A stretch of DNA of 64,000 nt, taken from assembly GCF_009720365.1 (NCBI RefSeq), contig NZ_WBZD01000044.1, positions 62,001-126,000 on the forward strand. The letters are read 5' to 3'. The translations under genes and the position numbers were made by a program. Each line of letters opens with the position of its first letter. Within the stretch, counting starts at the first letter, position 1. Of the stretch, positions 4,872 through 57,318 are shown in pieces. The stretch is from Catellatospora paridis. GTDB taxonomy: Bacteria > Actinomycetota > Actinomycetes > Mycobacteriales > Micromonosporaceae. The notes beneath the pieces were generated by a model. That model did not search any database, was not told where the DNA came from, and saw only the letters and a list, made by a program, of their open reading frames with translations.

Positions 4872-6152
4872 GTGTCTGAGACCTCGTTGCCGTCCGTGAT
4901 CGCACTGTCGCCGGTGGAGCAGCCGCCGGACGCCACGGTGCGGTTGCCGGGTTCCAAGAGCATCACCAACCGGGCGCTGCTGTGCGCCGCGCTCGCCGAG
5001 GGGACGAGCACGCTGACCGGGGTGCTGTTCGCCGACGACACCCGGGCCATGCTGGGCGCGGTCGCCGCGCTGGGCGCACACGTCACGGCCGACGAAGAAG
5101 CGGCCGAGGTGACGGTGCGGGGCACCGATCCGCGTGCCGCGACCGGGCCGGTGACGGTGCACGCCAACCAGTCCGGCACCACTTCCCGTTTCGTGCTTCC
5201 CGCGCTCGCGCTGCGCCCGGCGCGCGGGGTGCTCGACGGCGACGCACAGCTGCGCGCCCGACCCTTCGGCCCGCTGGTCGAGGCGCTGCGCACGCTCGGG
5301 GCGCGGGTCGAGGAACCGGCCGAGGCGGGCCGGCTGCCGCTGGCCGTGACCGGCCCGGTGCACGGCGGCCGGGTCCCGCTGCCGGGGCACCTGTCCAGCC
5401 AGTTCCTGTCCGGGCTGCTGATGGCGGGGCCGCTGATGCGCGACGGGCTGGCCGTGGAGCTGACCTCGCCGCTGGTCTCGGTGCCGTACGTGACCATGAC
5501 CGCCGCGGTGATGGCCGCGTTCGGCGTGCGAGCCGACGGGCTGGGCGTCGCCCCGGGCCGCTACCGGGCCGCCGAGTACGCGATCGAGCCCGACGCGAGC
5601 GCCGCGTCGTACTTCCTGGCCGCGGCGGCGATCACCGGCGGGCGGATCACCGTGGCCGGGCTGGGCGCGGGCAGCCTGCAGGGAGACGTGCGCTTCGCCG
5701 ACGTGCTGGAGCGGATGGGCGCGCGGGTGTCGCGGACCGCCGACGGCATCACGGTGACCGGCGGCGGCCCGCTGCGCGGCGTCGACGTCGACATGGCCGA
5801 CATCTCCGACACGGCGCAGACCCTGGCCGCGGTGGCGGTGCACGCCGACGGGCCGACCCGGGTGCGCGGCATCGGCTTCATCCGTGAGAAGGAGACCGAC
5901 CGGCTAGCCGCGGTCGTCACCGAGCTGCGCCGGGCCGGCATCGACGCGACCGAGCATGAGGACGGCTTCACCGTCCGGCCGGGCCGCCCCGCGCCGACGC
6001 GCTTCGACACGTACGGCGACCACCGGATGGCGATGAGCCTGTCGCTGCTGAGCCTGCGCTCGCCCGGCATCGAGATCGACAATCCGCGGTGCGTCGCGAA
6101 GACCTACCCGGGTTTCTTCGCGGACCTGTCGCGGGTCACCGCCCGAGCGTGA
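4872..6152 (+). CDS. aroA: 3-phosphoshikimate 1-carboxyvinyltransferase (EPSP synthase)
   Basis: This 426-residue cytoplasmic enzyme transfers enolpyruvyl from PEP to shikimate-3-phosphate, the sixth step of the shikimate pathway. The N-terminal LPGSKSITNRAL carries the shikimate-phosphate-binding Lys29 and Ser30 and Arg34. NQSGTTSRF is the PEP-loop equivalent, SSQFLSGLLMAGPLM follows, and the C-terminal REKETDRLAA and GDHRMAMSLSLL motifs are intact. Length is normal. GTG 4872 is chosen because the protein-like sequence begins there. No clear ribosome site precedes it, and a CATACT box seven bases upstream suggests a leaderless transcript. Confidence 0.95.
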   Translation: MSETSLPSVIALSPVEQPPDATVRLPGSKSITNRALLCAALAEGTSTLTGVLFADDTRAMLGAVAALGAHVTADEEAAEVTVRGTDPRAATGPVTVHANQSGTTSRFVLPALALRPARGVLDGDAQLRARPFGPLVEALRTLGARVEEPAEAGRLPLAVTGPVHGGRVPLPGHLSSQFLSGLLMAGPLMRDGLAVELTSPLVSVPYVTMTAAVMAAFGVRADGLGVAPGRYRAAEYAIEPDASAASYFLAAAAITGGRITVAGLGAGSLQGDVRFADVLERMGARVSRTADGITVTGGGPLRGVDVDMADISDTAQTLAAVAVHADGPTRVRGIGFIREKETDRLAAVVTELRRAGIDATEHEDGFTVRPGRPAPTRFDTYGDHRMAMSLSLLSLRSPGIEIDNPRCVAKTYPGFFADLSRVTARA

Positions 6153-25655: not shown

Positions 25656-25714
25656 GCCTTCTCCTCGCTGCGCTCGTCGGCGGCATCACCGAGCCTGCTG
25701 ATTCGCTCGCTCAT
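25652..25714 (-). repeat. Mini-ORF linker element bridging pafB and pafC
   Basis: A 20-codon frame begins at ATG 25714, overlapping the pafB stop by one base (TGATG). It ends at TGA 25654-25652, overlapping the pafC ATG by four (ATGA). The peptide begins MSERISRLG and ends ADERSEEKA. The end of the element supplies GAGGAGAAGG as the pafC ribosome site. The same design occurs twice in tandem at 56002-56147. It looks like a mobile or spreading repeat that keeps operons translationally connected; whether the peptide matters is unknown. Confidence 0.75.
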
Positions 25715-54314: not shown

Positions 54315-55289
54315 TCAGCGGCGGAGGACGGCGTAGACGTCCTCGGGTGTGAGGATGCCGAGGACGTCGGTCCCGTCGCGGACCTCGACCCAGCCGGTGT
54401 CGCCCTCCAGCAGCGCGGCGAGCGCGTCGCGCAGTGAGCCGTCCACCGGCACCGACGGCGCTTCCCGGCCGGCGGACTCGCCGTCGGGCATCGGGCGCAG
54501 TCCCTCGCGCGGGATCGGGGTCACCGCCAGCAGCTTGATGCCGCGATCCGCGCCGACGAACTCGGCGACGAACGTGTTCGCCGGCTTCGCCAGCAGCTCC
54601 GCCGGTGGCGCGAACTGCTCCAGCCGGCCGCCCTCGGACAGCACCGCGATCCGGTCGCCGAGACGCACCGCCTCGTCGACGTCGTGCGTGACGAAGACGA
54701 TGGTCTTGCGGACCGTCTGCTGCAGGCGCAGGAACTCGTCCTGCAGCCGCCCGCGCACGATCGGGTCGACGGCCGAGAACGGCTCGTCCATCAGCAGCAC
54801 CACCGGGTCGGCGGCCAGCGCCCGGGCCACCCCGACGCGCTGGCGCTGCCCACCGGACAGCTCATGCGGGTAGCGGCCGGCGTAGCCGGCCGGATCGAGG
54901 CCGACCAGGTCCAGCAGCTCCGCGGTGCGCTCGGCGACCTGGCCCTTGGGCCAGCCGAGCAGCTTCGGCACGGTGCCGACGTTGTCGCGCACGGTCTGGT
55001 GCGGGAACAGGCCCACGTTCTGGATGACGTATCCGATGCGCCGGCGCAGCGCGATCGGGTCGACCGCGGTGATCTCGTCGTCGCCGAGCCACATCCGCCC
55101 GCCCGACGGCTCGATCAGCCGGTTGACCATCCGCAGGATGGTGGACTTGCCGCAGCCCGACGGCCCGACCAGCACGGTCAGCTCGCCGGCGGGCAGCTCC
55201 AGGCTCAGCTCGCGGACCGCGACCGTGCCGCCGTCGTACTGCTTACGTACGCCGTCCAACCTGATCGACACCGCAGCGGTACGGTTCAC
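54315..55289 (-). CDS. Osmoprotectant/betaine ABC importer ATPase with CBS domain
   Basis: A 324-residue ATPase of the OpuA/OpuC type. Walker A is GPSGCGKST, the Q-loop IQNVGLFPHQTV, the signature LSGGQRQRVGVARAL, and Walker B VLLMDEPFSAVDP. A C-terminal CBS-like part (about 285-324, LGILTPEDVYAVLRR) may sense ionic strength or nucleotides. GTG 55289 has GGAGG six bases upstream. That site lies within the first codons of the divergent permease gene, whose ATG is only two bases away. Confidence 0.93.
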   Translation of the reverse strand: MNRTAAVSIRLDGVRKQYDGGTVAVRELSLELPAGELTVLVGPSGCGKSTILRMVNRLIEPSGGRMWLGDDEITAVDPIALRRRIGYVIQNVGLFPHQTVRDNVGTVPKLLGWPKGQVAERTAELLDLVGLDPAGYAGRYPHELSGGQRQRVGVARALAADPVVLLMDEPFSAVDPIVRGRLQDEFLRLQQTVRKTIVFVTHDVDEAVRLGDRIAVLSEGGRLEQFAPPAELLAKPANTFVAEFVGADRGIKLLAVTPIPREGLRPMPDGESAGREAPSVPVDGSLRDALAALLEGDTGWVEVRDGTDVLGILTPEDVYAVLRR

Positions 55290-55291
55290 CT

Positions 55292-56005
55292 ATGCCCTCC
55301 AAGGTCAACGACGCCGTGCTCGGCCTGGGCGCACCGGGCGACGATCCGCGCAACCCCTGGTTCTCCTGGAGCTACGTCAGCCAGAACACCGACACCCTGC
55401 TCGCCGCGCTACGCGAACACCTCTTCCTGACCTTAGTCGCTGTGGTGCTGGCGACGGTGATCGCGATCCCGCTGGCGATCCTGGCGTACCGCGTCGGCTC
55501 GCTGGCCGGGCCGATCCTGGGGTTCACCGGCGTGCTCTACACCATTCCCTCACTGGCGCTGTTCGCGTTCCTCGCCCCGTTCACCGGCATCGTCAAGCCG
55601 ACCACGGTGCTGATCGGACTGACGATGTACGCGCTGCTGACCATCGTGCGCAATACGCTGACCGCGCTGCGCCAGGTGCCCGCCGACGTGCTCGACAGCG
55701 CCCGCGGCATGGGCTACGGCAAGCGGGCCATGCTGTGGCGCATCGAGCTGCCGCTCGCGCTGCCTGGCATCATGACCGGTCTGCGCATCGCCACCGTGTC
55801 GACGGTGGCGCTGGTCACGGTCGGCGAGCTCGCCGGCTGGGGCGGCCTCGGCGAGCTGATCATCGGCGGCTTCAACAGCAACTACTACCGTCCGCAGATC
55901 ATGACGGCGACGCTGCTGTGCGTGGCGCTCGCCCTGGTCCTCGACCTGGTCCTGCTCGCCGTGGGCCGCGTCATCATGCCCTGGACCCGCCGGAGAGCCG
56001 CATGA
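55292..56005 (+). CDS. Osmoprotectant ABC importer permease 1
   Basis: A 237-residue permease (OpuBB/OpuCB-like) with about five or six helices. The EAA cytoplasmic loop reads VLDSARGMGYGKRAMLWRIE followed by LPLALPGIMTGLR. ATG 55292 has no ribosome site; a TACGGT box ends six bases upstream, so it may be leaderless. GTG codons a few residues in are alternatives. Its TGA overlaps the first mini-ORF of the repeat at 56002 by four bases. It should pair with permease 2 and the ATPase. Confidence 0.92.
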   Translation: MPSKVNDAVLGLGAPGDDPRNPWFSWSYVSQNTDTLLAALREHLFLTLVAVVLATVIAIPLAILAYRVGSLAGPILGFTGVLYTIPSLALFAFLAPFTGIVKPTTVLIGLTMYALLTIVRNTLTALRQVPADVLDSARGMGYGKRAMLWRIELPLALPGIMTGLRIATVSTVALVTVGELAGWGGLGELIIGGFNSNYYRPQIMTATLLCVALALVLDLVLLAVGRVIMPWTRRRAA

Positions 56006-56147
56006 GCGAGCGTGAGCGAGCGAATCAGATGCCCACCGCCCATGCCGCCGACGAGCGCAGCGAGGAGAAGGCATGAGCGAGCGTGAGCGAGCGAATCAGA
56101 TGCCCACCGCCCATGCCGGCGACGAGCGTAGCGAGGAGAGGGCATGA
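56002..56147 (+). repeat. Two tandem 71-bp mini-ORF linker elements between the permeases
   Basis: Two near-identical units (56002-56072 and 56073-56143). Each opens with ATG, codes 24 residues beginning MSERERANQMPTAHA and ending DERSEEKA or DERSEERA, and ends GAGGAGA(A/G)GGC. The frames overlap as ATGA with permease 1, with each other and with permease 2, forming an unbroken relay of start and stop codons. The element family is shared with 25652-25714. Tandem duplication of one unit is evident from only a few base differences. Confidence 0.82.
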
Positions 56148-56869
56148 GTGTCATCGACGACGCGATCGTCTGGCTCAACGATCCGCTGAACTGGACCAAC
56201 CCTGACGGCATCTTCGCGCGTACGGCAGAGCACCTGTGGATCTCCGCGGCGGCGGTGGCGCTGGGCTGCGCGGTCGCCTGGCCGCTGGGCGTGTTGATGG
56301 GACACCTCGGCCGCGGCGGCCCCGCCGTGGTGACCGTGACCAACCTCAGCCGCGCCGTGCCCACGGTGGCCCTGCTCACCATCTTCCCGCTCACCGCGAT
56401 CGGCTTCGGCCCGAAGGCGATCATCCTGGCGCTGTCGCTGTTCGCGATCCCGCCGCTGCTGGCCAACGCCTACCTGGGCCTGCGCGAGGTCGATCCGGAG
56501 GTGCGCGACGCGGGGCGGGGCATGGGCCTGTCCGGCTGGCAGCTGCTGCGCAAGGTGGAGCTGCCGCTGGCGGTGCCATATCTCGCCAACGGGTTCCGCA
56601 TCGCCGCGGTGCAGGTGGTGGCGACCGCGACGCTGGCCGCGTACGTCAACGGCGGCGGCCTCGGCATGATCATCAGCCGCGGCTTCGGGCTGGGCCTCGC
56701 CTCGGGCGGCGGCCAGGTGCTGGCCGGCGGCCTGCTGGTGGCGCTGCTCTGCCTGATCGTGGAGGGCGTCCTCGCCCTCGCCGAGAGGGCGCTGCTGCCG
56801 AAGCCGCTGCGCCGCGTCAAGCACCGCCCGCCGGCCTCGGTCGCCGACGCGCTGCCCGCCAGGTCCTGA
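56144..56869 (+). CDS. Osmoprotectant ABC importer permease 2
   Basis: A 241-residue permease with about six helices. The EAA loop is VDPEVRDAGRGMGLSGWQLL then RKVELPLAVPYLANGF. It is a distant paralog of permease 1, giving a heterodimeric channel as in OpuB/OpuC systems. ATG 56144 is preceded by GAGGAGAGGGC from the linker element and overlaps the second mini-ORF stop. The C-terminal tail is basic. The binding protein is encoded 667 bases downstream, with a HAD gene on the opposite strand between. Confidence 0.93.
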   Translation: MSVIDDAIVWLNDPLNWTNPDGIFARTAEHLWISAAAVALGCAVAWPLGVLMGHLGRGGPAVVTVTNLSRAVPTVALLTIFPLTAIGFGPKAIILALSLFAIPPLLANAYLGLREVDPEVRDAGRGMGLSGWQLLRKVELPLAVPYLANGFRIAAVQVVATATLAAYVNGGGLGMIISRGFGLGLASGGGQVLAGGLLVALLCLIVEGVLALAERALLPKPLRRVKHRPPASVADALPARS

Positions 56870-56913
56870 ACGGCGGACGGATCCGGCCGGGACACCTGCC
56901 GGCCGGGTCCGTC

Positions 56914-57318
56914 TCACCACAGGCCGCGGGCGCGCAGCAGGTCGAACAGCTGGGCGTTGTCGCGGAACAGCACGCTGTCGATCCCGGCCGCCGTGCCGCC
57001 CGCGACGTAGCGGGGCTTGTCGTCGACGAACAGGCACTGCTCCGGCCTGCGCCCGATCTCGGCCAGGGCCCGCTCGAAGAACTCCCGCTGCGGCTTCAGA
57101 AAACCCATCTCGTACGACACCAGCACCCCGCTGATGCCCGGCCGCCCGCCCAGCAGCTCGCGGATCACCGCCGCGCGCCGCGGGTTCTGGTTGGTGACCA
57201 GGTACACGCCGTCGACCGCGAGCCGGGGCAGCACGGCCAGCAGCTCCTCGTTGGGATCGAGGCTGCCCGCGGGCACCAGCAGCACGCCGTCCACGTCCAG
57301 CAGCAGCGTCGTCACCAC
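56914..57318 (-). CDS. Short HAD-family hydrolase
   Basis: A 134-residue HAD-fold protein without a cap domain. Motif I is D8-V-D10-G-V, motif II is VTNQN, the Lys is in GFLKPQREF, and motif IV is FVDDKPRYVAGG. Cap-less HADs this small act on large phosphorylated substrates or are regulatory. Two adjacent GTG codons (57318, 57315) can start it. It lies within the osmoprotectant locus but on the opposite strand, so a transport role is not implied. Confidence 0.85.
   Translation of the reverse strand: MVTTLLLDVDGVLLVPAGSLDPNEELLAVLPRLAVDGVYLVTNQNPRRAAVIRELLGGRPGISGVLVSYEMGFLKPQREFFERALAEIGRRPEQCLFVDDKPRYVAGGTAAGIDSVLFRDNAQLFDLLRARGLW

Follow-up and report, generated by a model that had tools for sequence, protein, structure and literature searches.

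The window analysed here is a 64,000-nt stretch of the Catellatospora paridis genome (contig NZ_WBZD01000044.1, positions 62,001 to 126,000), in which two ABC transporter permease genes are separated by two tandem repeat units of 71 nt (Table 1). The units are 96 % identical and each consists of a single open frame of 24 codons plus a stop, referred to as a mini-ORF (ORF, open reading frame). ATGA overlaps of 4 nt join permease 1 to mini-ORF 1, mini-ORF 1 to mini-ORF 2 and mini-ORF 2 to permease 2, and in both units the ribosome-binding-site-like GAGGAG ends 5 nt before the next ATG. Such an unbroken stop-start chain is called a relay below. A repeat finder placed the two direct repeats at 56000-56070 and 56071-56141, the ORF register lying 2 nt further on. 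The initial annotation of the window had described two tandem units with 24-codon frames, their own ribosome site and ATGA overlaps before, between and after them, and all of this was confirmed in the sequence. The array is very probably a tandemly doubled copy of a dispersed intercistronic element, inserted at a 4-nt overlap of operon genes. In this reading, drawn from the comparison of sequences presented below, xTGA overlaps are the target of the element and translational coupling is maintained after insertion.

Table 1. Features of the permease junction and of the further copy of the element in the window
Feature	Positions	Strand	Remarks	Basis
Permease 1, upstream ABC transporter permease (PF00528)	55292..56005	+	stop TGA at 56003-56005 overlaps the start of mini-ORF 1	
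Native Shine-Dalgarno-like GGAGAG	55992..55997	+	within permease 1, 5' of mini-ORF 1	sequence, pairing energies
Repeat unit 1, 71 nt	56002..56072	+	mini-ORF 1 at 56002-56076, MSERERANQMPTAHAADERSEEKA and stop	
GAGGAG of unit 1, ribosome-binding-site-like	56062..56067	+	5' of mini-ORF 2	sequence, pairing energy
Repeat unit 2, 71 nt	56073..56143	+	mini-ORF 2 at 56073-56147, 24 aa, MSERERANQMPTAHAGDERSEERA and stop	
GAGGAG of unit 2, ribosome-binding-site-like	56133..56138	+	5' of permease 2	sequence, pairing energy
Permease 2, downstream ABC transporter permease (PF00528)	56144..56869	+	start overlaps the mini-ORF 2 stop by ATGA	
Third copy, single, 59 nt	25656..25714	-	flanked by a WYL/WCX gene and a PafC-like gene; mini-ORF at 25714-25652, MSERISRLGDAADERSEEKA and stop	

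The third copy, which was not part of the initial annotation, overlaps the preceding gene by TGATG and the following gene by ATGA. The unit ends in an 18-nt tail, GACGAGCGNAGCGAGGAG, with 85 exact matches in the 8.97-Mb window genome in comparison to none for the reversed control. In 11 Catellatospora genomes the exact tail matches numbered 85, 14, 0, 60, 77, 2, 66, 38, 10, 0 and 0, giving a sum of 352. The analysis of the anatomy was based on 80 fetched 20-kb stretches (62 surrounding copies, 18 controls), which together with the window made 81 sources; with up to 2 mismatches allowed, these contained 114 tail matches grouped into 91 arrays. Among the 75 clean arrays 63 were single, 10 double and 2 triple, and the clean units of 71 nt (n=35) were hypervariable in the middle (identity of 0.50 vs 0.76 and 0.84 at the ends).

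The spread within the window genome was uneven, since contigs C1 (1.10 Mb) and C5 (0.56 Mb) held none of the 85 tail matches and C2 (0.93 Mb) only two. In two of the genomes lacking the tail, inserts with the same head and another tail were observed in relay (L245 of G002 and L255 of G010, junctions J7 and J25), and these are probably sub-families. Tandem units of one species, as in the window array, L119 and L121, have species-specific bases in common, either by repeated rounds of duplication or by concerted evolution, and the array may therefore act as a variable-number repeat.

The seven closest named orthologs of permease 2 all come from Catellatospora (81-93 % identity). The tail was present in 57 of 300 genomes of the family, taken as Micromonosporaceae, and was multi-copy in some genera only. 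Two of these genera were read: g11 has a recognisable element (L019), and the tandem tail matches of g10 (L010 and L030, spacing 58 and 60 nt) show the tail in another setting and were discarded as copies of this element. The tail followed by xTGA was found in 71 of 397 genomes of the order, mostly as one or two copies and in genus g4, and, at the level of counts alone, 15 genomes from two further families (f13 and f16) had between one and three copies. Genus g4, a sister genus, is probably Micromonospora, because a second repeat of g4, described below, is also present in named Micromonospora loci (L155 and L198). A phage origin was rejected: the 18-nt tail had 50 matches in 49 viral contigs, none of which contained the head, and the 8 matches with xTGA nearby stood in settings unlike that of the element.

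The length from the head to the next start was 3n-1 in 90 of 95 measurable units, one third being expected; the lengths were 44, 59, 62, 65, 68, 71, 74 and 83 nt, mostly within 59-74 nt, and the 19 of 114 tail matches with no recognisable head or downstream start were excluded from this count. When all 114 were included, an unbroken stop-start chain led to the downstream gene in 80 of the 91 arrays, starting at the upstream stop in 62 and at the element's own start in 18. A same-strand coding frame ended within -300 to +75 nt of each of the 75 clean arrays, and 70 of them led to an ORF of 80 aa or more, gene orientation being judged here from coding frames rather than from a full gene annotation. 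The units are short, dispersed, intergenic and sometimes tandem, as would be expected of an ordinary non-coding repeat (REP, BIME, MITE-like hairpin, RNA stability element or terminator) with an incidental open frame, but this explanation does not agree with the strict placement between same-strand frames or with the 3n-1 lengths. RNA structure as the function was rejected, since no excess of structure was found (mean fold z of -0.44 in 45 of the 89 elements) and a search of 54800-57300 against Rfam gave nothing at E values of 1 or below. Similarly, of 4 inverted-repeat pairs detected, none falls inside a unit. A non-coding repeat is thus extremely improbable.

In one gene cluster (L045, 7712-10355), probably a his operon, four copies of the element were observed. 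In the first three the start shares 4 nt with the upstream stop; the fourth is some 50 nt beyond that stop. Three copies precede genes for an aminotransferase, imidazoleglycerol-phosphate dehydratase and a glutamine amidotransferase.

The strength of the ribosome sites was compared as the pairing energy with the anti-Shine-Dalgarno sequence. It reached -8.9 kcal/mol for the element tail (n=89) as opposed to -3.45 kcal/mol for random sequence of the same origin (n=1080). The host sequence 5' of the mini-ORF gave -8.35 kcal/mol (n=75) and the empty sites gave -8.5 kcal/mol (n=87, 14 host bases used). Since these energies match, the insert leaves the native Shine-Dalgarno (SD) sequence to the mini-ORF and supplies an equal one to the displaced gene. 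At the permease junction of empty relatives (L124 and L125) a sequence placed like GGAGAG stands 5' of the downstream permease instead.

The position of the copies relative to gene starts was not random. An overlap of exactly 4 nt between the upstream stop and the element start was found in 51 of 75 clean arrays, and in 60 of them the stop was within -30 to +1; in the control stretches a 4-nt overlap was found in 11 of 103 same-strand gene pairs (Fisher, indicative p = 1e-15, the two counts coming from scripts that differ in detail). Orthologs of 26 downstream genes were located in ten congeners, and of the 160 places taken (60 loci and 100 fetched) 157 were classified, the remainder being without an aligned neighbour. 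The criterion for an empty site was overlap of the stop with an in-frame ATG or GTG located between -60 and +72 nt from the projected start. For the 19 junctions with a 4-nt overlap in the window genome, 83 of 123 ortholog stretches were empty with a bare 4-nt overlap, 38 contained inserts and 2 were unclassed. As many as 37 of the 38 inserts formed an exact relay, the remaining one (L351) having a shifted upstream stop; the head motif was present in 30 inserts, 29 of them relays, and absent from 8, all of them relays. The initial annotation had proposed a spreading element shaped to insert between operon genes: its dispersal proved to exceed chance, its position is tied to gene starts and its frames are seldom broken, and insertion at an existing 4-nt overlap is supported by the empty sites of the congeners.

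In the 75 arrays the left and right start letters agreed beyond chance (55 AA, 7 GG, 9 GA and 4 AG; Fisher, indicative p = 0.001), as would be expected from duplication of a DTGA target, and at single junctions (e.g. J2, J17 and J23) the edge letters matched those of the empty sites imperfectly. At junction J2 a copy lies 5' of a FabH-like gene (L043, 9939, minus strand) in the window genome only, all 9 of the 9 fetched congeners being empty; it is at most 86 % identical to any other clean copy and is apparently an insertion of its own, with no visible source.

Host selection alone could also account for part of these observations, if spacers had grown between coupled genes and been kept when they formed relays, with the similarity between places due to gene conversion and no mobile element involved. 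The limited likeness of the dispersed copies and the hypervariable middle of the units are in line with this view, as are the unrelated relay spacers found at one and the same junction (see below). It does not account well for a head and tail conserved at about 90 places when close relatives have clean empty sites, nor for the correlated start letters at both ends, and the J2 copy is better explained by insertion. Host selection without a mobile element is therefore considered unlikely.

The permease junction of the window contains two units in C. sichuanensis as well, two units in one fused frame in C. vulcania (the inner ATG is lost and the total of 140 nt is still 3n-1), one unit in C. methionotrophica, and a 26-nt remnant encoding MSERSEEKA and a stop, with coupling retained, in C. 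coxensis. No insert is present in Catellatospora sp. KI3, where the overlap is ATGA, or in C. tritici, where it is GTGA. In C. bangladeshensis (L122, about 5897-6000) another insert, with inverted arms (GCAGTTTCGGGGAAACTGC..., by eye), occupies this junction and is also a relay. The 80 named loci examined for this junction comprised 54 direct overlaps, 24 relays and 2 cases of neither, so that 24 of 26 spacers were relays; about 18 of the 24 relay mini-ORFs were, by eye, unlike the element. In the control stretches only 3 of 17 non-overlapping xTGA-ended pairs were relays (Fisher, indicative p = 8e-7 against the 24 of 26; the scoring of the named loci also accepted TTG, used in one case), and the 24 relays do not correspond to 24 events since the Micromonospora species among the 80 loci have common ancestry.

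A second dispersed repeat, GTGAGCGCG...GCGAGCCCCGCAGTCGCGAACGA, unrelated to the element, was noticed in 30 of 31 genomes searched in genus g4, with a tandem spacing of 56-62 nt (loci L438-L467, also L155, L198, L410, L411 and L425). Same-strand coding frames were present on both sides in 17 of the 29 loci scored, and 10 of these 17 were mini-ORF relays and 7 were not.

The conservation of the frame was followed in a copy shared within genus g4. Its tail, GAGCGNAGCGAGGAGNNGTCATGA, was matched in 33 of 61 genomes searched, and 30 loci (L408-L437), one per genome, were read; all contained this single copy 5' of the same 501-codon gene (141 codons of the gene were read in L425), and it is apparently an old fixed insertion. 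The relay was intact in 30 of 30 loci despite eight different lengths of 26, 50, 59, 68, 71, 74, 131 and 191 nt, all of them 3n-1.

In 15 orthologous pairs of Catellatospora elements (equal length, at least 75 % identity, some pairs with a common member) the differences were distributed 37:33:35 over codon positions 1:2:3, and of 81 changed codons 19 were synonymous and 62 nonsynonymous, with a synonymous share of 0.215 expected for random changes. The positive control, the downstream genes of 10 such pairs, gave 28:9:121 with 119 synonymous and 33 nonsynonymous changes. Purifying selection on the mini-ORF peptide was not detected in the 15 pairs, and the even distribution of substitutions means that the peptide looks neutral while the frame and the ribosome site are kept. 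These comparisons suggest that the reading phase is conserved as the amino-acid sequence drifts, and that the job of the mini-ORF may be the handing on of ribosomes rather than the production of a useful peptide.

It follows that a family of functional microprotein genes, encoding an Arg/Glu-rich peptide and spread as a gene, is very unlikely. The conserved peptide ends (MSERSER... and ..DERSEEKA before the stop), the intact frame and the fact that the most variable base of the 18-nt tail is the 4-fold degenerate third base of CGN would favour a microprotein, but the unbiased codon positions and the neutral synonymous share, so different from the values of the adjacent genes, speak against it. 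Moreover, the same junctions can hold unrelated sequences or remnants reduced to VKEETA or MSERSEEKA, and the single peptide tried had no Pfam match.

The triplet lengths could in turn have a purely mutational origin, by slippage in an internal 9-nt repeat (AGCGAGCGC/AGCGAGCGA) with no selection for coupling. Orthologs that differ by 9 nt are known (62 vs 71 nt at J10 and J15, 59 vs 68 nt at J16), but the lengths fall into three classes modulo 9 (e.g. 68, 71 and 74), which indicates that other 3-nt steps occurred. Spacers devoid of this repeat are relays as well, as described for the permease junction, and the sister-genus copy keeps 3n-1 in all its eight lengths. Slippage as the sole cause is consequently judged highly doubtful.

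A wider proposal, in which our confidence is evenly divided, is that DNA gained between translationally coupled genes in Micromonosporaceae is kept only if it can be read as a ribosome-passing chain of mini-ORFs. Coupling would then act as a strong selective filter, and unrelated repeat families (the element described here, the second family of the sister genus and the hairpin-bearing insert of C. bangladeshensis) together with non-repeat spacers would have converged on the relay with neutral peptides.

The element carries its own start codon first (xTGAGCGAGCG...), followed by one frame open for 3n-1 nt and by an SD sequence and xTGA at its end. According to the proposed mechanism, it inserted at an xTGA where two operon genes overlapped by 4 nt, so placed that the upstream stop overlaps the mini-ORF start and the mini-ORF stop overlaps the downstream start. 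Since stop and start overlap at both ends of the element, a ribosome leaving gene 1 could start again at the mini-ORF, close to the native SD sequence inside gene 1, and subsequently at gene 2, where the SD sequence of the element would serve it. The anatomy of the element, its dispersal and target site, the empty sites, the conserved frame, the matching SD strength and the lack of any sign of selection on the peptide can be read from the sequences; translation of the mini-ORFs and re-initiation are predicted, as is a mover active at present or in the past.

Several observations weigh against this reading. The chain was broken or not scorable in 11 of 91 arrays: L113 and the match at 7523 in L050 look like chance tail matches, L054 is fused in frame to the downstream gene, L075 reads through, on manual reading, from a GTGCACGAG start not accepted by the script, and the rest are decayed. 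The 4-nt overlap with the upstream stop was absent from 24 of 75 clean arrays, in 15 of which the stop was more than 30 nt away. At the 7 junctions without a 4-nt overlap in the window genome (34 stretches), 4 stretches were empty with an overlap, and a chain from the upstream stop was formed in just 7 of 30 spacers, the other 23 not being relays. The genomes are related and the pairs overlap, so they are not independent and the p-values are only indicative. Slippage in the 9-nt repeat could cause part of the triplet pattern of insertions and deletions. The dispersed clean copies (n=89) were never more than 94 % identical to each other, which gives no sign of very recent copying; taken together with the sourceless J2 copy, it suggests that copies may have been made long ago or imprecisely, or may have come from outside. 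Finally, no mover was found.

A transposase of the Y1 type was considered as the mover and provided only a weak lead. Of the 11 genomes of the genus, 6 contained Y1_Tnp genes, with a loose tie to copy number (Mann-Whitney p = 0.011, phylogeny ignored); the window genome had fragments only, and in two other genomes the gene contained an internal stop.

The closest known counterparts are the mycobacterial interspersed repetitive units (MIRUs), reportedly described by Supply et al. in 1997. The insertion target of MIRUs is a DTGA start-stop site. The Catellatospora element resembles them in being short, dispersed, tandem, located between genes of the same direction and provided with an ORF whose ends overlap the neighbours by 4 nt. 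It differs in belonging to another host family and in its hypervariable middle, its conservation of frame and not of peptide, and the unrelated spacers that act alike; the likeness drawn here is one of anatomy. According to a 2025 review MIRUs appear mobile, with insertion at start codons, coupling through a -4 spacing and a target gene that is likely minimally affected (PMC12548453). Units of 77 and 53 bp placed in series are named for the senX3-regX3 region in another source (PMC4213456), and by our own arithmetic both lengths are 3n-1. MIRU hosts are given as many mycobacteria in the review (PMC12548453) and are limited to M. leprae and the M. tuberculosis complex in the other source (PMC4213456).

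Translational coupling by 4-nt ATGA or GTGA overlaps and short upstream ORFs involves the same junction geometry and the same proposed hand-over of ribosomes, as outlined in the 2025 review (PMC12548453). Unlike in plain overlap coupling, the coupling ORF is here a repeated insertable module, sometimes two or three in series. REP/BIME and RAYT systems are likewise short dispersed repeats with a copy number varying between relatives, but the Catellatospora unit has no palindrome or excess structure and is strictly oriented to genes. The enterobacterial RU repeats are also small, mobile-looking and with open frames; their available description gives them as 103-168 bp long and similar to MITEs, with no start-stop relay mentioned in that part (PMC2759123).

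The literature matches listed included no report of such elements in Micromonosporaceae, and none of an empty-site series, of a frame kept without its peptide or of unrelated spacers under the same rule. Apparently new are thus the hosts, the series of empty sites, the conservation of frame without peptide, and the mostly unrelated spacers that also form relays at the same junction. The view of the initial annotation that the units are a spreading element that preserves coupling is supported by the sequence counts; the idea itself is not new, as insertion at start codons and -4 coupling is already published for MIRUs (PMC12548453).

The 352 tail matches in 11 genomes constitute a natural experiment on the importance of the 4-nt overlap to the cell, in which the reading phase is the most constant property of the element besides its ends. 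The units could serve as ready-made modules for testing the hand-over of ribosomes. Examples of domains encoded downstream (imidazoleglycerol-phosphate dehydratase, ketoacyl-ACP synthase III and AICAR formyltransferase in Pfam) illustrate how a sequence of selfish appearance can become established in basic-metabolism operons and leave them unbroken, and the MIRU-like logic would hereby be extended to another actinobacterial family.
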